A stretch of DNA of 64,000 nucleotides from Bifidobacterium vansinderenii (lineage in GTDB: Bacteria; Actinomycetota; Actinomycetes; Actinomycetales; Bifidobacteriaceae). The DNA is taken from contig NZ_NEWD01000014.1 of NCBI RefSeq assembly GCF_002234915.1, forward strand, positions 1 through 64,000. Direction: 5' to 3'. Shown piece after piece: positions 2,220 to 55,855 of the stretch. How positions within the stretch are numbered: position 1 is the first letter of the stretch; each line of letters opens with the position of its first letter. The position numbers were made by a program, and so were the translations under genes. The notes beneath the pieces were generated by a model. The model was given only the letters and a program-made list of their open reading frames with translations. It made no database searches and was not told the DNA's origin.

Positions 2220-3791
2220 TTATCGATCGGCGGAAAACGCCTGAACGAGATCGTCCACGTTTTCCACGGTTTCCAGCAAGGCGAGGCAGTCGGATTCGGT
2301 GTGTTCGCCGGGATCGGCGATGTCGATGTCGTGCAGCTGGCCGTCGCCTCCCCGTACGGTGATCGACCGCCAGGATGCGGCCACCACGTCGTTCGGGAAT
2401 CGACGGACCACTTCGGCGCGCAGCCACGCACGGGTGTCGGACGGCGCCTGAGAGCAGGCGTCGCCGAGCGCGGTGTTATCGATGAGCGAGATGGCGTGAG
2501 CGCGCACGGCCTCGAATACCGAGGCCTTGGGCTCCAACGCGGCCCATGCGATGTCCATGGCGCGGATCTTCGGATCGTCCCAGCCCAGACCGCGCTTGGT
2601 GCGCAGCCGCTCCATGAGCTGCCATTTGAGCAGCCATTCGAGCCGTCCGGCGGCGCCGGTCATGCCCATGCGTTCCTCGTCATCGGCATGGGATACGCGC
2701 GCCACGTCCTCGAGCGCCGTGCCCCACATGGCCATGATGCGCTTGGTGGGCTCGTCCGGCCAGAGCGGTTCGCCGTCGATGTCGGTGCCGTATACGCCGG
2801 CGGCCACCTCGTAGACGGCCGATCGCAGCAGCACCTGCGTCTGCCATGCCGTGATGGTGCCGCCGTCCTCGGTGGCGTACGGCTGCCGCAGCGTCAGATC
2901 GTGGGAGACCATGTGGATGGCCTCGACCGGATCGGCCGGCGTGAGTCGGTCTGCGAGTGCCTGCAGATCGTAGCCGGCCTCGTCGGCATGCTCGGCGAGC
3001 CATGCGATCATGCTGGTCGTGCCCAGTCGCAGCGCCTCCGGCGTATCCATGCGGTTGGCGTCGCCGACGATCACGTGCAGGCGACGGTATCGGTCGGTGC
3101 TGTGCGATTCGTCGCGCGTGTTGATGATCGGACGGTCGAAGGTGGTCTGCAGTCCGACCTTGGCGTGCACGTAGTCGGCGCGCTGGGATAACTGGAATCC
3201 CGCGGTCTCGCATCGTTCGCCCAGTCCGACGCGTCCGGTGCCGCAGTAGGTCTGGCGGGTGACGAAGTGCGGCGTCATGATCGCGATGAGCAGGTCGAAC
3301 GGCACGGATCTGAGGATTTGGTAGCTTTCGTGCGACCCCCAGCTGGCGCCCTTGCCGTCCACGTTGTTGCGGAACAGTTCGATGCGCTTGCCGGTGCGGG
3401 CGGATGCCTCGCGCGCGGCGGCGAGCATGAGCCGGTCTCCGGCGCGATCGTAGAGCAGCGCCTGGAATGGGTCGAGGGTCTCGGGCGCCGAATACTCGGG
3501 GTGGGCGTGGTCCACGTAGATGCGGCCACCGTTGGGGGCGATGGTGTTGACCACCTGCAGCTGCGGGGAGTCGGTGAGCATGTCGCGCCGGGCGGACGCG
3601 CGTTCCAGACGGTAGCCGCGCGCATCGTTGACCGGATCCTCGCCTCGGTAGTCCCAGCGGATGTGGCGGTGTTCGTCGTCGGCGGCGCCGTCCACCACGT
3701 CGAACGACAGTTGCACGGGGTTTGCACGGGGATTGGTCCTGTCGGTCACGGCGTATTCGGTTTCCGTGCCCATCACGCGCAGTACGGTCAT
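2220..3791 (-). CDS. dop: Depupylase / Pup deamidase Dop
   Basis: Dop is a PafA homologue that removes Pup from substrates and deamidates Pup-Gln where needed. The core begins with VLRVMGTETEYAVTD. A long insertion after it (about residues 25-65) is the Dop loop, which distinguishes it from PafA. The catalytic Asp segment RIYVDHAHPEYSAPE and the nucleotide segment INTRDESHSTDRYRRLHV follow. An upstream in-frame ATG exists at 3809, but GGGAG stands 11 nt before the ATG at 3791, so I prefer 3791 (523 residues). Because Pup here already ends in Glu, its main job is probably depupylation. It is downstream of arc on the same strand with a gap of about 80 bp. Confidence 0.93.
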   Translation of the reverse strand: MTVLRVMGTETEYAVTDRTNPRANPVQLSFDVVDGAADDEHRHIRWDYRGEDPVNDARGYRLERASARRDMLTDSPQLQVVNTIAPNGGRIYVDHAHPEYSAPETLDPFQALLYDRAGDRLMLAAAREASARTGKRIELFRNNVDGKGASWGSHESYQILRSVPFDLLIAIMTPHFVTRQTYCGTGRVGLGERCETAGFQLSQRADYVHAKVGLQTTFDRPIINTRDESHSTDRYRRLHVIVGDANRMDTPEALRLGTTSMIAWLAEHADEAGYDLQALADRLTPADPVEAIHMVSHDLTLRQPYATEDGGTITAWQTQVLLRSAVYEVAAGVYGTDIDGEPLWPDEPTKRIMAMWGTALEDVARVSHADDEERMGMTGAAGRLEWLLKWQLMERLRTKRGLGWDDPKIRAMDIAWAALEPKASVFEAVRAHAISLIDNTALGDACSQAPSDTRAWLRAEVVRRFPNDVVAASWRSITVRGGDGQLHDIDIADPGEHTESDCLALLETVENVDDLVQAFSADR

Positions 3792-3873
3792 GGTCTGTTC
3801 TGCTCCCATCTGGTCGCTGTTGTTGTCGCTGTCGTCGTTATTGCCGTCGCCGAGATCGGCTCGGTATGGTCGT

Positions 3874-5523
3874 TTATCGGCGTACGGGGATCATGGCGGT
3901 CACGCGTCCCGATTCGATGCCGTTGAGCCGCGCCCACTGTTCGGGGTTGGCTCCGGTGATCGAATCCACGGATTCGCCGTATTCCTCCTCGATGCCGCGG
4001 CCGAGCATCGCGGCGTCCAGTCTGGCCGGGCGGCCGCCGGCGATCGACGCCTTGACCGCCGCCGTCTTGGCACGGTCCACGATGTTCTTGAGCATGGCTC
4101 CGGAGATCAGGTCGCCGAAGTATATGCTCGTCCACTTGCCCTGCTCGTCGGCGATGTCGCATACGTGGCGGCTTTCGTCCCTGCGGAAGATGTCTCCCAC
4201 CATCACGGCGATCAGAGCGTCGGCGGTCATGCCGTCGGCCAGCGGCAGGTCGTCGGTCAGATAATGCCGCAGAATGGATGCGGCCTGCGGACCCTTGGGC
4301 CTGTCGATGCGGATCTTCACGTCGAGGCGCCCCGGACGCAGCACCGCGGGGTCGATCATGTCCACGCGGTTCGACGCGCCGATCACCATCACGTTGTTGA
4401 GCTCCTCGATGCCGTCGAGTTCGGCGAGGAACTGCGGCACGATCGTCGTCTCCACGTCGGAGGAGACGCCCGAGCCGCGGGTACGCAGCAGCGAATCCAT
4501 TTCGTCGATGAACACGATGACCGGGGATCCGCCCGCCGCACGGCGACGCGCCCGTTCGAAGATCGAACGGATGATGCGTTCGGATTCACCCACGAACTTG
4601 CTCAGGATCTCCGGCCCCTTGACCGACAGGAACACGCCGGTTCCGCCGCCGGATCCCTGTGCCAGCGAATGGGCCACGGCCTTGGCGATCAACGTTTTGC
4701 CGTTGCCCGGAGGACCGTACAGCAGCACGCCGCGCGGAGGATTGAGATCGTAGCGTTCGAACAGGTCCCGGTGCAGGAACGGCAGCTCCACGGCGTCGCG
4801 GATCTGCCCGATCTGCGCGTCCAGGCCACCGATGTCGTCGAACGAGACGTCGGGAGTCTCCTCCAATACCAGATCGTCCTCGTCCGGACGGGCCAGTTTT
4901 TCGATCGCGATCGAACAGGACTGGTCCACCACCACACGGTCGCCGCGCGTCAGCTCCGCGTTGGCGAGCGCGCCTGCCCGCCCCGCCACGGACAGCTGCC
5001 CCGACTGGTCGGCGAGCAGCAGCCGGCCCGATGCCAGCGTCTCCTCGACCGTGCGCACCTGACCGGTGATCGGCAGATCGCGTGTGGCCACGATCACCAT
5101 GTTCTCGTTGAGCAGTACGGTCTGTCCGCAGGAGAGCCGGTCGACGTTCACCAGCGACGAGATGGGCACCACCATGCGGCGTGATCCCATCACCACTTCG
5201 GCCGCCGCATGACGCACGCCGTCCTCGTCGATATGGCTGGAATCCACGCGGACGAACAGTGCGAAGTTCTCCGGAGGCTGTGCCAGGGAGTTGAGCTGGG
5301 ACTTGGCCTGCCTCAGTTCCTTGCCCGCGCGGTTGAGCGCCTGGGCGAGCGCGTGGTTCTTCGCCTGCAGCACGTCGGCGTGCTCGGCCATGCGCGTGTA
5401 GCGTTCCTGCAGATCGTTCATGTCGTCGTTCCCGGTGGCCGGCTCGCCCGTCCCGCCCGACTTGTCCTTCCCTCGCATCGTCTCGGTCTTATCCATCGTC
5501 CGCACGATTCCTTCCCGGGGCAT
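3874..5523 (-). CDS. arc: Proteasome-associated AAA+ ATPase ARC/Mpa
   Basis: This hexameric unfoldase recognises pupylated proteins. Domains in order: N-terminal coiled coil (about residues 38-80) that binds Pup, tandem OB folds (about 85-210), and the AAA+ module with Walker A GPPGNGKT, Walker B VIVFIDEMDS, pore loop KFVGESE and arginine-finger region LRPGRLD. The C terminus ends MIPVRR and lacks the GQYL-type tail that docks Mpa onto the 20S proteasome, in keeping with the absence of prcBA here. The start is ambiguous: ATG 5523, or GTG 5505, which has AAGGA close upstream. It is the first gene of the pupylation run and divergent from serB. Confidence 0.93.
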   Translation of the reverse strand: MPREGIVRTMDKTETMRGKDKSGGTGEPATGNDDMNDLQERYTRMAEHADVLQAKNHALAQALNRAGKELRQAKSQLNSLAQPPENFALFVRVDSSHIDEDGVRHAAAEVVMGSRRMVVPISSLVNVDRLSCGQTVLLNENMVIVATRDLPITGQVRTVEETLASGRLLLADQSGQLSVAGRAGALANAELTRGDRVVVDQSCSIAIEKLARPDEDDLVLEETPDVSFDDIGGLDAQIGQIRDAVELPFLHRDLFERYDLNPPRGVLLYGPPGNGKTLIAKAVAHSLAQGSGGGTGVFLSVKGPEILSKFVGESERIIRSIFERARRRAAGGSPVIVFIDEMDSLLRTRGSGVSSDVETTIVPQFLAELDGIEELNNVMVIGASNRVDMIDPAVLRPGRLDVKIRIDRPKGPQAASILRHYLTDDLPLADGMTADALIAVMVGDIFRRDESRHVCDIADEQGKWTSIYFGDLISGAMLKNIVDRAKTAAVKASIAGGRPARLDAAMLGRGIEEEYGESVDSITGANPEQWARLNGIESGRVTAMIPVRR

Positions 5524-5641
5524 GCCCCGTCCGTCATATCCACTCCTAGCCTACGCGACACCGGCCGCACGCCGTACCGTGTTCGCGACGATTCACGGCG
5601 ATTCGCGATGATTGTCCCCGCGCATGGAAACAATGGGTGGA

Positions 5642-6367
5642 ATGCGTACACGTTCCTTCACCATCAGCCGTCCGACCATGTTCTCCTCCCCCGCCATCAC
5701 CGGCGCCGATGAATCCACCGGCGGCGCCCACGACGGAATGCGATTGATTGTCATGGACATCGACTCCACGCTGATCAACGAGGAGGTCATCGACATGCTG
5801 GGCGCCGAGGCCGGCATCGGCAACAAGGTGGCGGCCATCACCGAACGCGCCATGCGCGGCGAACTTGACTTCCGTCAGGCGCTCACCGAACGCGTGGGGC
5901 TTCTGGCCGGCATGGATGTGTCGGTGTTCGACCGTGTGTACCGGCGCACCAGTTTCACGCCGGGTGCGCTTGATCTGGTTCGTACCGCGCATGCGCGCGG
6001 CTGGAAGGTAGGCGTGGTCTCCGGAGGATTCCATGAGGTGGCCGATCGTCTGGTCGCCGACGCCGGCATCGACTATTGTCTGGCGAACACGCTGGAAGTG
6101 ACGGACGGCAGGATCACCGGCCGTCTGATCGGCGATATTGTGACCAAGGAGACGAAGCTCGCCGCCCTGCGACGCTGGGCCGGCGAATGCGGCATCGACA
6201 TGGCGCACACCGTGGCGATCGGCGACGGCGCCAACGACATTCCCATGATTCAGGCGGCGGGCGTGGGCATCGCGTTCTGCGCCAAGCCCAAGACGCGTGC
6301 CGCGGCACCGCATGCGATCGACGAACGCGATCTCATGCGCGCGTTTGCAATCATCGATCAGGCCTGA
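5642..6367 (+). CDS. serB: Phosphoserine phosphatase SerB
   Basis: SerB is a HAD-family phosphatase that makes L-serine from O-phosphoserine. Motif I is MDIDSTLINEE, the cap region matches SerB (MRGELDFRQALTERVGLL), motif II is VVSGGF, and motifs III/IV are seen as the lysine after RLIGDIVTKETK and IGDGANDIPM. The N-terminal ACT-like domain of the E. coli protein is missing. Several in-frame starts exist (TTG 5612, ATG 5624, 5633, 5642, 5738); none has a clear ribosome binding site. ATG 5642 is a compromise, and the catalytic core begins at 5738. It is divergent from arc and about 85 bp before ktrB. Confidence 0.88.
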   Translation: MRTRSFTISRPTMFSSPAITGADESTGGAHDGMRLIVMDIDSTLINEEVIDMLGAEAGIGNKVAAITERAMRGELDFRQALTERVGLLAGMDVSVFDRVYRRTSFTPGALDLVRTAHARGWKVGVVSGGFHEVADRLVADAGIDYCLANTLEVTDGRITGRLIGDIVTKETKLAALRRWAGECGIDMAHTVAIGDGANDIPMIQAAGVGIAFCAKPKTRAAAPHAIDERDLMRAFAIIDQA

Positions 6368-6402
6368 CCGGCTCTCGGCCGCACGATCGTCCACACGATC
6401 AA

Positions 6403-6424
6403 TGTGATCAACTTGTGATCGACT
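6403..6424 (+). repeat. Two tandem 11-nt repeats before ktrB
   Basis: TGTGATCAACT and TGTGATCGACT stand head to tail with one mismatch, spaced one helical turn apart, about 30 bp upstream of the ktrB start. Further GATC-containing half copies lie just upstream. This arrangement suits a regulator binding one DNA face; no known motif is recognised. Confidence 0.35.
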
Positions 6425-6452
6425 TGTCTGCCTACGGAGTTAGCGTGCTGAG

Positions 6453-7865
6453 GTGGACAACGACAGACGATCCGTGTGGCGTGGGTTCTCATCCTCGCAA
6501 ACCAAGACTCCGTCCGTGCGCAGAGCGTTTACCGAACGCATGCTCTCGCACCCTGGACGCTTGTCTCTCGCATACTTTCTGGTGCTGATCGTGATGGGCA
6601 CGGTACTGCTCATCCTTCCGGCGACGTCGAGGGACGGGCAGCCCACCGACTTCAACACCGCGTTCTTCACCACCGTATCGGCGCTGTCCACGTGCGGCAT
6701 CGTCATCGTGGACACCGCGGAATACTGGAACCTGTTCGGCCAGGCGGTGATTCTGCTGTGCATTCAGTTCGGCGGTCTCGGCGTCATGACGTTCGCGTCG
6801 CTGATCACCATGACGATCAGCCGTCGTATCCGCGTCACCCAGCAACTGCTCGCCGCCGACGAGCTCGGCGCCTCGAAGCTCAGCGAGGTGCGATCGGTGA
6901 TCAACGTGGTGTTGATCTGCACGTTCAGTGTGGAGATCATCGCGTTCAGCATGCTGTTCCCGGCCCTGCTGCGCCTTAACGAGGGGCAGATGTCGCAGTC
7001 CCTGTGGGAGGCTATCTTCTTCGCCGTCGCCTCGTACAACAACGCCGGCTTCACGCCGGACACGGCCGGCCTGTACATCAACAGCTGGTCGGTCGGCCTG
7101 CCGATCCTGCTCAGCGCGTTCGTCGGCACGCTCGGCTTCCCTGTGATCCTCAACGTGTTCCAGTGCGCGCACCGCCGGCAGGGCCCCAAGCGCTGGAATC
7201 TGCATACCAAGCTCACCGTGGTGACCACGATGTCGATCGTCACCACGTCGCTGCTGTGGTTCCTGTCCGTGGAGTGGAACAACACCACGCTGTTCCATAA
7301 CGCCGACCTGTCGTCGAAGCTCTGGCACGCCCTAGTGGCGGCGGTCATGCCACGTTCGGCCGGATTCGACATCTCGTGGATGCCGCACGTGAGCGAGCAG
7401 ACGAAACTGTTCATGTCGTGGATCATGTTCATCGGCGGCGGTTCGGCATCTACGGCCGGAGGCATTCGCGTTACCACGTTCGCCGTGCTGATTCTGGTGT
7501 GTCGGGCCGCGTTCCTGCGCCGCAAGGACGATTCCGTGTTCGGCAAGCGTCTGCACACGCAGACCGTGATCATGTCGGTCGCCATCACGGCCACCTGCAG
7601 CATCCTGATCTACGTCGCGTCGCTGATCCTGCTGACCATCACGAACCGTTCGCTCACCGACATCGTGTTCGAATGCTGCTCCGCGTTCGGTCTGGGCGGA
7701 TACACGCTGGGCGTGGCCGATCCAAGCAATCCCGGCACGCTGTATGTGCTGGCGGCGCTGATGGTCATCGGCCGACTTGGCCCCATGACGGTGGCGTACG
7801 CCATCTCCAAGCCTCAGCCTCCGCAGGCGGTACGGTACCCGGCTGAAAGTATCATTGTCGGTTAG
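6453..7865 (+). CDS. ktrB: Potassium uptake channel subunit, TrkH/KtrB type
   Basis: This 470-residue integral membrane protein has four repeated membrane-pore-membrane units. The selectivity-filter glycines are visible in STCGIV, NNAGFTP, RSAGFD and GLGGYT. The N-terminal 30 residues are hydrophilic and cytoplasmic. It imports K+ together with the RCK-domain protein encoded next. It starts at GTG 6453; the ORF is open well upstream of the first membrane segment. The pairing with a single-RCK subunit points to a Ktr-type rather than TrkH/TrkA system, but the two names are used interchangeably for such proteins. Confidence 0.9.
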   Translation: MDNDRRSVWRGFSSSQTKTPSVRRAFTERMLSHPGRLSLAYFLVLIVMGTVLLILPATSRDGQPTDFNTAFFTTVSALSTCGIVIVDTAEYWNLFGQAVILLCIQFGGLGVMTFASLITMTISRRIRVTQQLLAADELGASKLSEVRSVINVVLICTFSVEIIAFSMLFPALLRLNEGQMSQSLWEAIFFAVASYNNAGFTPDTAGLYINSWSVGLPILLSAFVGTLGFPVILNVFQCAHRRQGPKRWNLHTKLTVVTTMSIVTTSLLWFLSVEWNNTTLFHNADLSSKLWHALVAAVMPRSAGFDISWMPHVSEQTKLFMSWIMFIGGGSASTAGGIRVTTFAVLILVCRAAFLRRKDDSVFGKRLHTQTVIMSVAITATCSILIYVASLILLTITNRSLTDIVFECCSAFGLGGYTLGVADPSNPGTLYVLAALMVIGRLGPMTVAYAISKPQPPQAVRYPAESIIVG

Positions 7866-7941
7866 TTTTCGATAGGTGGTGACGATGATTCCCGCATTGC
7901 AGCAACTGTTCACGCATGGCACTACGAGAGGGAAGGAACAG

Positions 7942-8604
7942 ATGGGCGCCATACACAGCGAAAGCCGTTCGATCCTTGTGGTTGGTTTGGGACGATTCGG
8001 CACCGCGGCGGCTCGCACGTTGGGCGAACTCGGCGAGGACGTGCTCGCCGTGGACAAGGATCCGATGATCGTGGCCCGATGGGCCGGCAACGTGCCGGTG
8101 ATGGAGGCCGATCTGACCGATCCGCTCGCCGTGGAGCAGATCAACGCCTCGAACTTCGACGCGGCGCTCGTGGCGATCGGAGACAGTGTTGAGGCATCGA
8201 TCCTCGCCACCGGCAACCTGCTCGACGCCGGCATTCCCGATGTGTGGGCCAAATCGGTGTCGCACCAGCATACGCGTATTCTGCAGCGCATCGGCGCCAG
8301 CCACGTGTTCCGCCCGGAAACCGACGGCGGCAAGCGCGTGGGGCATCTGCTGGCCAGCCGCTTCCTTGACTACATCGAGATCGAAGGCCCGTATTCGGTG
8401 GTGAAGGTGCTCACGCCCTCCTCCGTCTGCGGGCAGAGCATCGCCGATTCGCTGATCCGCGAACGGTTCGGCGTGAGCGTGATCGGCGTGAAGAACCCCG
8501 GCGAGGAGTTCCAGTACGGTTCCACCGACATCGTGATCCGTCACAACGCCGAGCTGATCATCCTCGGTGCCCAGAAGCAGATCGACCGCTTCATCGAAAG
8601 CTGA
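7942..8604 (+). CDS. ktrA: Potassium uptake regulatory subunit, KtrA/TrkA type
   Basis: A peripheral cytoplasmic ring protein that gates KtrB in response to nucleotides. RCK-N Rossmann domain begins ILVVGLGRFGTAAARTL (GxGxxG) with an acidic residue at the end of strand 2 (VDKDP). A C-terminal TrkA_C domain spans about residues 140-221. An in-frame ATG at 7876 exists, but the ATG at 7942 has AAGGA 5 nt upstream, giving 221 residues, the usual KtrA length. It follows ktrB by 76 bp on the same strand. Confidence 0.9.
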   Translation: MGAIHSESRSILVVGLGRFGTAAARTLGELGEDVLAVDKDPMIVARWAGNVPVMEADLTDPLAVEQINASNFDAALVAIGDSVEASILATGNLLDAGIPDVWAKSVSHQHTRILQRIGASHVFRPETDGGKRVGHLLASRFLDYIEIEGPYSVVKVLTPSSVCGQSIADSLIRERFGVSVIGVKNPGEEFQYGSTDIVIRHNAELIILGAQKQIDRFIES

Positions 8605-31314: not shown

Positions 31315-31460
31315 GATTTGGTAGTCACAACGAACTTGGTAGTCCAAACGCGACAGTGTGAGCCTTCACAAGGCATCGATCATGTCGCGTTCGGACTACC
31401 AAATCAGAACGGACTACCACATTGTCTCGTTCGGACTACCAAAATGGATTGAGCTACCAA
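31315..31460. repeat. Palindromic repeat array C (GGTAGTC family)
   Basis: Two forward units (TTTGGTAGTCACAACGA, then CTTGGTAGTCCAAACGCGACA) are followed by inverted units such as TGTCGCGTTCGGACTACCAA (31383-31402) and TGTCTCGTTCGGACTACCAA (31423-31442). The core between the arms, read on the minus strand, is GCCTTGTGAAGGCTCACAC then TGTCGCG, the same core as in the arrays at 54.2 and 55.7 kb. It lies 19 bp after the def stop. Confidence 0.75.
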
Positions 31461-54144: not shown

Positions 54145-54167
54145 ACCGAAACGCAACACCGCACCAA

Positions 54168-54404
54168 TTTGGTAGTCCGAACGCGATACCGGCATGGTTC
54201 GGATGCGGTCATGCAGCCCAACTTGGTAGTCGAAACGAGACACTTTCCCGATTTGGGAGTCGAAACGAGACAGATCAGACGCCTTGTGCGCGCTCACACT
54301 GTCGCGTTCCGACTACCAACTTCGTTTTGACTCCCAAAATGTCCGCTACCGACTACCAAAGTACCCGCATTCGACTCCCAAAATGTCGCGTCCGGACTAC
54401 CAAA
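54168..54404. repeat. Palindromic repeat array A (GGTAGTC family)
   Basis: Three forward units of about 21 nt (54168, 54222, 54251; type TTGGTAGTCGAAACGAGACA) face five inverted units (54300 to 54404; type TGTCGCGTTCCGACTACCAA). The core is GCCTTGTGCGCGCTCACAC then TGTCGCG. Units alternate GGTAGTC and GGGAGTC. The block can fold into a long cruciform. About 153 bp (54196-54348) are nearly identical to 55668-55820. It begins 24 bp after the dapB stop. Nothing else is visible in 54405-54499. Confidence 0.85.
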
Positions 54405-54499
54405 CACAATCAGCCATGGCATCATTTGCACGAGCCGAAGGAATACATTCGAGTTTCCCGGAGAACGAAACGATGAGACGCCAGCTTCGATCATCGTCG

Positions 54500-55504
54500 T
54501 CACCGACCGCCGATCAATGACGCGATCCTCGGATAATCAGGATTCCTCGGAACTCCGGCAAGCTCCAGTTTCCTTCGCAAAGTTCCGTCATACACATCGT
54601 TCATCGTGAAATGTACGACGGTATGTACGCCGGCCAAATACAGATTGCCGTCACGGTTCTTCTCCTCCAGCACCTTGTCGACCGAATCCCGACCATTCAG
54701 CATCTGCACGTCAACATACTTCTGTCGCCCGTCAAGCTCCGCCACGATCAGATTCCCATCGTCGGCGGTCCAGCAGTAATCCGCATACATGGCGCCGCCC
54801 TTCACCGGATCGACGAAACGCCGCTGCAGATCGGGAGGAAGGAAACCCCACTGGATCATGTATCCGCGCGCTATGGATTCGCCTCCGTTGGCGCTTGACG
54901 GATCGGCGTGATGCAGTACGACCATCGCACGTCCACCGCCATATTTACCGGTTCGTTGCGAACAATACCGCCGCAGATGATCGTGCGTCTGATCGATGTC
55001 CGTGGCATACAGTTGCAAGGATTTATCGACGATGGCCAAAGCCTCCGGATATTGCAGCAATCGGGCGCAATCGAACACCGTTTCCGTAAGCGACGTGACG
55101 GGAATTCCCTCATGTTCGACCGATGAATAATTCTTACGCTGATGAAAACGGATTCTGGAACTATCACGATTCTTGCAATGCGTGTGCCTCACCACATGAA
55201 TGTCACTGCACAATGTCGTCGAATCCGTGAGCCCCCAGACCACGGCCGCCGACGGACCGCAGTACGTCCAGCCCTTCTGACGTCGATGACGATGCGCATC
55301 CGTTCGCAGTATGTGCAGCAACCGCTCCCGAACCGACAAGGCATTCCAATATTGCGGATCGGCGTAGAATCGCGGGAACGGCGTGCAGATGATGCCTGAT
55401 TTCAGATGACGTTGCAGACGGGTTCTCTCCGTACCGTTGCTGGCGTATGCGCATCGTAGTTCCTGATGCGCGGTTTGAATCATGCTTTCCGTCGTGGTTC
55501 CCAT
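54500..55504 (-). CDS. Orphan AbiEi-like / DUF559-like protein with PD-(D/E)XK-type C terminus
   Basis: 334 residues. The N-terminal part looks like the winged-helix AbiEi-type region of actinobacterial orphan proteins: ERLLHILRTDAHRHRR, GPSAAVVWGLT, then GIPVTSLTETVFDCARLL. The C-terminal part fits a DUF559/Vsr-like nuclease fold: GGESIARGYMIQWGFLPPD, then ADYCW, then AELDGRQKY, giving E...D...ExD...K. GC content is visibly lower than in its neighbours. It lies between repeat arrays A and B and has no partner toxin gene. Start ATG 55504 or 55483; weak ribosome binding site. Function inferred, not shown. Confidence 0.65.
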   Translation of the reverse strand: MGTTTESMIQTAHQELRCAYASNGTERTRLQRHLKSGIICTPFPRFYADPQYWNALSVRERLLHILRTDAHRHRRQKGWTYCGPSAAVVWGLTDSTTLCSDIHVVRHTHCKNRDSSRIRFHQRKNYSSVEHEGIPVTSLTETVFDCARLLQYPEALAIVDKSLQLYATDIDQTHDHLRRYCSQRTGKYGGGRAMVVLHHADPSSANGGESIARGYMIQWGFLPPDLQRRFVDPVKGGAMYADYCWTADDGNLIVAELDGRQKYVDVQMLNGRDSVDKVLEEKNRDGNLYLAGVHTVVHFTMNDVYDGTLRRKLELAGVPRNPDYPRIASLIGGR

Positions 55505-55609
55505 GACGGCACGATAGATACGGGGCGATCGTCTTCACCACTGCCTTAGATGAATGTGGTCGAACGTATCCCCCGCCTTGAGGTGCCACACGCTGCGACG
55601 AGCACACAA

Positions 55610-55855
55610 TTTGGTAGTCGAAACACGACACCACATCAACTTGGGAGTCGAAACACGACACCGGCAGGGTTCGGATGCGGTCATGCAGCCCAACTTGGTA
55701 GTCGAAACGAGACACTTTCCCGATTTGGGAGTCGAAACGCGACATATCAGGCGCCTTGTGCGCGCTCACACTGTCGCGTTCCGACTACCAAGTTCGTTTC
55801 GACTCCCAAAATGTCCGCTTTCGACTACCAAAATGTCGCGTTCGGACTACCAAAA
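55610..55855. repeat. Palindromic repeat array B (GGTAGTC family)
   Basis: Four forward units (55610, 55640, 55694, 55723) face four inverted units (55771 to 55855), around the same core as array A and in the same orientation. It is thus a direct repeat of array A across 1.4 kb. It ends 19 bp past the MFS stop at 55875. The stretch 55505-55609 shows nothing else. Confidence 0.85.

Follow-up and report, generated by a model that had tools for sequence, protein, structure and literature searches.

In the open-access papers considered here, RAYTs are otherwise the one type of protein linked to palindromic repeats that are dispersed and have a driver gene of their own. As described in the sections of PMC2817692 that concern them, RAYT genes are flanked by two repetitive extragenic palindromic (REP) sequences with which they co-evolve, they evolve fast, and repeat abundance tracks the gene; E. 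coli genomes with a RAYT hold more REPINs, according to part of PMC8049555. For AbiEi-type proteins, binding to inverted repeats within the promoters of their own genes is described (PMC7319586, in the part cited here). The stretch analysed here, called the window, comprises 64,000 nucleotides (nt) of Bifidobacterium vansinderenii (NCBI RefSeq assembly GCF_002234915.1, contig NZ_NEWD01000014.1, positions 1 to 64,000). It carries, with dapB and MFS genes as neighbours, a nuclease-like gene of low guanine-plus-cytosine (GC) content that is bracketed by two direct copies of a palindromic array (237 nt, 88% identical, mutually closest relatives), which confirms the gene, the arrays and the low GC content described in a previous sequence-only reading. 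Genes of this family are often found between copies of their own element, and this pairing is well supported. We see an even chance that the gene encodes a solitary DNA-binding nuclease whose cognate sites are dispersed between genes, an organisation like that of REPs and RAYTs with an unrelated protein.

Pairing of genes with their own elements

A first contig scan with the single window protein as query gave no relative; an alignment query did find them, with 160 relatives among 175 matches, and the best 80 of the 160 were kept, so that the counts cover half. Flanks of 400 nt were compared for a shared repeat of at least 40 bits at 103 loci, 95 of them unique and 92 with full flanks. A shared repeat was detected for 58 of these 92 genes and for 6 of 283 other open reading frames (ORFs) in the same loci, and the pairing noticed in the window by the sequence-only reading thus recurs elsewhere. 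The relatives come from two bacterial classes that mostly inhabit the gut, and shared repeats occurred in Bifidobacteriaceae (30/54 genes against 6/183 control ORFs) as well as in Coriobacteriia (28/38 against 0/100), with the best flank match being direct in 44 cases and inverted in 14. Some of the 34 genes failing the test have arrays on one side only or farther away. Counting 10-mers around the genes agreed with the flank test, the best controls being neighbours with the same arrays. Unrelated paralogues go with completely different elements. All gene pairs of at least 80% identity had common flank repeats, but all of these are syntenic; common repeats were found for 13 of 53 gene pairs at 60-70% identity and for 7 of 4564 below 60%, in a co-variation count that a few loci still entered twice.

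Dispersal and decay of the elements

The array unit TTGGTAGTCNRAACGNGACA, with K allowed at its fifth base, led to 76 matches with at most two mismatches at 26 places in the 3.11-Mb genome, 21 of which hold at least two matches; the pattern read backwards as a control gave none in this genome. For comparison nine congeneric genomes were used, with G000 as the genome of the window and G007 as B. simiarum. A core of unit, 25-27 nt and inverted unit was present in 20/20 fetched sites of G000, among them one poor site with 7 mismatches (L060), and in 11/12 fetched sites of G001. Sites of the window and B. simiarum families lie mostly in gaps between called ORFs (27/36), and such gaps make up 13% of that DNA. 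The window family and a second element of the same genome were often observed in a common intergenic neighbourhood (L047, L063, L059, L060 and L061 of G000). In the centre of the window-family core, and abutting one arm or the other, a dyad of the GTGAGNNNTCACA type was detected with at most two mismatches in 32 of 34 cores of G000 and G001 (shuffles expect about 0.3 of 34), which we take to resemble the LacI operator.

Five element families were searched for dispersal. Among the nine genomes the window family was detected in G000 and G001 only, the latter being a sister species without the gene. The second element had 18 sites in each of these two and none in the other seven, its gene being 88% identical between G000 and G001 and the next best gene in the nine genomes 59% identical. 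The B. simiarum element had 19 sites in its own genome and none in the other eight, where the nearest genes are at most 62% identical, and a Collinsella element was found in 3/3 genomes with an 87-100% identical gene and in 0/4 with genes of at most 42% identity. A fifth element (G002, G001) was hardly dispersed, with two weak matches in G005 and another two in G006, neither of which has its gene. Three of the five families were therefore not found outside genomes that carry the cognate gene. Abundance follows the gene in four families, and the fifth fails to show this.

In G001, which lacks the window gene and, as we infer, formerly had it, window-family arrays persist at orthologous places. 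A leave-one-site-out model, for which both genomes supplied the training data, gave G000 units a better fit to the consensus than their orthologous G001 counterparts in 22 of 28 cases, an equal one in 2 and a worse one in 4 (p = 0.003); as the G000 side was the source of most units, some bias towards G000 may remain. The unit columns of 2 of the 28 were found from the G001 side; both favour G001, and their score gap suggests misalignment. One of 11 locus pairs had no ungapped unit. The second family, whose gene is kept in both genomes, showed no such difference (7 against 4, p = 0.32). When G000 sites were checked for empty counterparts in G001, one was matched by an array there and another had no syntenic match; at L226/L233 the seemingly missing element probably lies outside the fetched stretch.

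Predicted protein and array arms

According to prediction, the window protein combines an AbiEi-like half that would bind DNA (about residues 1-201) with a PD-(D/E)XK-like domain at its C terminus (about residues 205-317), with a structure model of mean predicted local distance difference test (pLDDT) score 88.7 and predicted template modelling (pTM) score 0.85. From model and comparison, its N-terminal part has the AbiEi-type antitoxin fold, with fold matches that include the structures 6y8q and 1zel. Residues 205-317 gave fold matches to TnsA, Bax1, XisH, Can2/Cdn1 and BamHI; in Foldseek, the model of the window protein led to nothing at E 0.001. Likewise, no match of the window protein was obtained in Pfam and NCBIfam, nor in the PDB when searched by sequence, and only one of 22 relatives matched Pfam REase_MTES_1575, weakly. 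A candidate active site of E209, D242, E256 and K262 is invariant in the sequences of these 22 relatives, and the order E, D, ExDGxxK corresponds to the PD-(D/E)XK-type pattern. Neither an AbiEii-like partner nor a nucleotidyltransferase-type toxin was found beside the window gene (the neighbours of relatives were not searched for toxins), and no toxin or methylase partner was seen adjoining it. The nuclease-like, solitary gene of the sequence-only reading is supported by the invariant candidate residues and the model.

Covariation between the arms was analysed in 34 cores of the window family, with p = 0.011 at position 10, about 0.07 at positions 5 and 15 and at least 0.12 at all others; for the B. 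simiarum element p was at least 0.11 (18 of 19 elements, the poorest, from L212, being left out). As the arms vary largely independently, paired double-stranded half-sites are favoured over hairpins, and the data suggest that the arms are such half-sites. Single cores are able to fold (z -4.0 to -8.7, four cores). Selection of the doublets as hairpins was considered and not supported: doublets are present, but their variable arm positions are mostly without covariation.

The arrays appear to take part in rearrangement, because centres are inverted or replaced and a segment of 5.4 kb lies between arrays. Comparison by eye of orthologous G000 and G001 sites of the second element revealed an inverted centre at L227/L236 and a replaced one at L225/L092. 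The segment is found in G001 (L197, about 2600-8300; G001:C3), bracketed by two window-family arrays, at a place where G000 (L056) has a single array, and its ORFs, read by eye as an MFS transporter, a GH127-like hydrolase and a LacI-like regulator, look like sugar utilisation. Both this segment and the two direct copies around the window gene fit recombination between arrays, and the arrays may be places at which cargo recombines.

The dapB-MFS locus in congeneric genomes

While dapB is present in all nine genomes, the gene directly adjoins the MFS gene only in G000 and G004; G007 has a relative of 33% identity 1.3 kb past the same MFS gene. G001, the closest genome by dapB (99% identical), has no gene at this site, and its dapB-MFS gap of about 190 bp contains an array fragment and one copy of another element. 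In this gap (G001:C12:209091-209135), a copy was noted that resembles the GCTCTTTACAGCG... sub-family belonging to the second element, and the sub-family itself occurs at an orthologous site of G000 and G001 (L230/L238). The G004 copy, the orthologue of the window gene (L111, about 4886-5620), is truncated and 47-50% identical over the aligned part, and lies on the same MFS-gene side in the same orientation as the window gene. It is flanked by two direct copies of a palindromic element entirely unlike the window arrays, and these copies remain 90% identical despite the truncation of the gene. The family changes fast, since dapB is 88% and the two MFS genes are 76% and 79% identical between G000 and G004, compared with 47-50% for the gene.

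Residence beside the MFS gene may be old. As the G004 copy has the same side and orientation and an unrelated flanking element, loss at this site is as likely as gain. Neither a target-site duplication nor a clean empty site or clean gene insertion was seen among the gene-less relatives of the site. The transferable or excisable cassette proposed by the sequence-only reading therefore holds in part: the gene-less G001 site with its array fragment and the fit to array recombination favour it, and movement of gene and arrays as a unit is not supported. The gene is not present at this site in all related genomes, and its homologues do not consistently lack flanking arrays and the predicted nuclease-like fold.

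DnaA-box promoters

Within 200 nt upstream of the gene, exact TTATCCACA was detected for 28/55 Bifidobacteriaceae relatives and 0/202 control ORFs, and the looser TYRWCCACA for 43/55 and 2/202, respectively. Plus-strand sites of TCGWCCACA or TTGTCCACA begin 58-60 nt before the start codon in 21 of 24 cases. In Coriobacteriia upstream regions the exact motif was found in 0/39, and the loose one in 1/39 compared to 1/116 controls. TTATCCACA and TTGTCCACA are types A and B of the DnaA box of B. longum, as given in the section cited from PMC2430713. Expression in Bifidobacteriaceae is probably tied to DnaA, which would bind at these boxes. Paralogues whose flanking elements are unrelated were also observed to have DnaA boxes and a DnaA-box-like motif in common, at a constant spacing of about 59 nt from the start codon.

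Table 1. Positions of the window gene, its promoter motif and the window-family arrays (numbered from the first letter of the window).
Feature	Position	Strand	Basis or remark
Nuclease-like gene, 334 amino acids	54500..55504	-	ORF, residue conservation, structure model
DnaA-box-like sequence TCGACCACA	55555..55563	-	59 nt ahead of the start codon of the window gene
Array 1	54147..54404		between dapB and gene 3' end; units 54169, 54223, 54253 (+), 54300, 54340, 54384 (-)
Core of array 1	54253..54319		unit, 27-nt centre, inverted unit
LacI-operator-like dyad, centre of array 1	54284..54299		dyad search in cores
Array 2	55611..55854		between gene start and MFS gene; units 55611, 55641, 55695, 55725 (+), 55772, 55812, 55834 (-)
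Core of array 2	55725..55791		unit, 27-nt centre, inverted unit
LacI-operator-like dyad, centre of array 2	55756..55771		dyad search in cores
Third array of the window family, without gene	31336..31442		locus L045

Candidate explanations

For a solitary nuclease with dispersed cognate sites, the following course can be envisaged. The AbiEi-like half would bind the two 20-nt arms, which are inverted to each other, as half-sites of double-stranded DNA, with two protomers and start points 46-47 bp apart, and the PD-(D/E)XK domain would then nick or cut in or beside the core centre. Repair from other copies would keep the array copies alike and occasionally seed a new intergenic site. Cutting, copying by repair, spread of the repeats and any benefit are what we infer. 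In its fuller form, this would be a second, independently built repeat-and-driver pair in Actinomycetota, namely an AbiEi-PD-(D/E)XK nuclease, DnaA-timed in Bifidobacteriaceae, by which a family of double-stranded intergenic sites of its own is copied and homogenised through break and repair, and which so follows the REP/RAYT way of life with unrelated parts; this we regard as plausible, if slightly short of an even chance.

An unlikely but serious alternative is a regulatory or chromosome-organising protein, whose AbiEi-like half binds the arrays to control neighbours or to fold the chromosome. The arrays would be kept as binding sites by selection, spread by ordinary recombination and decay after loss of the protein, with nuclease activity being secondary or lost. 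Such a role would agree with arms behaving as double-stranded half-sites, with the LacI-operator-like dyad in the window-family centre, with array copies persisting at orthologous intergenic places and with the promoter binding of AbiEi-type proteins described in part of PMC7319586. However, the E, D, ExDGxxK residues are invariant in the 22 relatives, array copies also lie downstream of the gene, and no single regulatory position fits the sites of the window and G007 families, which are convergent in 9, divergent in 9 and tandem in 9 cases.

Quite improbable is a homing-type selfish gene, whose nuclease would cut gene-less arrays so that the gene is copied in during repair, leaving two arrays around it. 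The array-gene-array layout, the elements that stand alone or as fragments where the orthologous place has no gene, and the patchy occurrence can be explained in this way, but within a genome each element family has a single gene among its 18-26 array places, of which homing would fill more, and intact arrays on both sides would remain cleavable. Slightly less probable still is a solitary restriction or defence nuclease with the arrays as protected or regulatory self sites. The AbiEi likeness, the PD-(D/E)XK-like domain and the low GC content of the gene would agree with it, and a defence role had been considered by the sequence-only reading. It is not borne out: phage records and one viral-contig scan gave no relative, plasmids only two records (one a 900-kb Collinsella record), the window gene has no AbiEii-like, toxin or methylase partner adjoining it, and a restriction enzyme would not be expected to have its self sites dispersed. 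Mere coincidence, with genes landing in repeat-rich intergenic regions, is very improbable: different families do co-occupy intergenic neighbourhoods (e.g. L047, L063), but the control ORFs of the same loci rarely share flank repeats and element families are confined to genomes with the cognate gene.

If a nuclease with dispersed cognate sites is indeed what these genes encode, the many protein-element families within one genus would be replicate cases for the role of such repeats and for why hosts keep them, as well as a natural code by which protein sequences correspond to recognition sites of great length. Intergenic repeats specific to single species of bifidobacteria and Collinsella would then also have a possible explanation.

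Comparison with known systems

A RAYT as driver was considered and rejected, the Y1 transposase family that includes RAYTs (PF01797) being present in one of the nine genomes (G003), which is not that of the window. With an unrelated protein and arms that fail as hairpins, the pairing is not a member of RAYT-REP, although by analogy it may work like RAYT-REP at the level of genome ecology; the REPIN excess of E. coli genomes with a RAYT is a parallel to the array decay in G001. In the open-access literature (subscription papers and preprints being outside the scope) no comparable gene-repeat system is named. The pairing has its organisational logic in common with REP/RAYT.

In detail, likenesses to RAYT, REP, BIME and REPIN, as far as the sections cited describe these (PMC2817692, PMC3116915, PMC8049555), are the gene flanked by its own palindromic repeats, gene and repeat changing together, a fast-evolving gene, and repeats that are abundant where the gene is present, intergenic, species-specific and arranged as inverted doublets. 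In contrast, the protein is AbiEi-like and PD-(D/E)XK-like rather than a Y1/HUH transposase, and its flanking copies are mostly direct, whereas RAYT genes are described in these sections as lying between inverted REPs. About 18-26 places are occupied here compared with usually more than 100 copies for REPs (same sections), the arms look like double-stranded half-sites and not hairpins, and the genes have DnaA-box promoters. With AbiEi antitoxins including Rv2827c, a family described in part of PMC7319586 as inverted-repeat binders, the protein has the N-terminal fold in common; it differs from them in having a further, nuclease-like domain, no nucleotidyltransferase-type toxin next to the window gene, and sites dispersed genome-wide. 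With PD-(D/E)XK nucleases, finally, it shares the order of the invariant E, D, ExDGxxK residues, and its residues 205-317 gave candidate fold matches to them.
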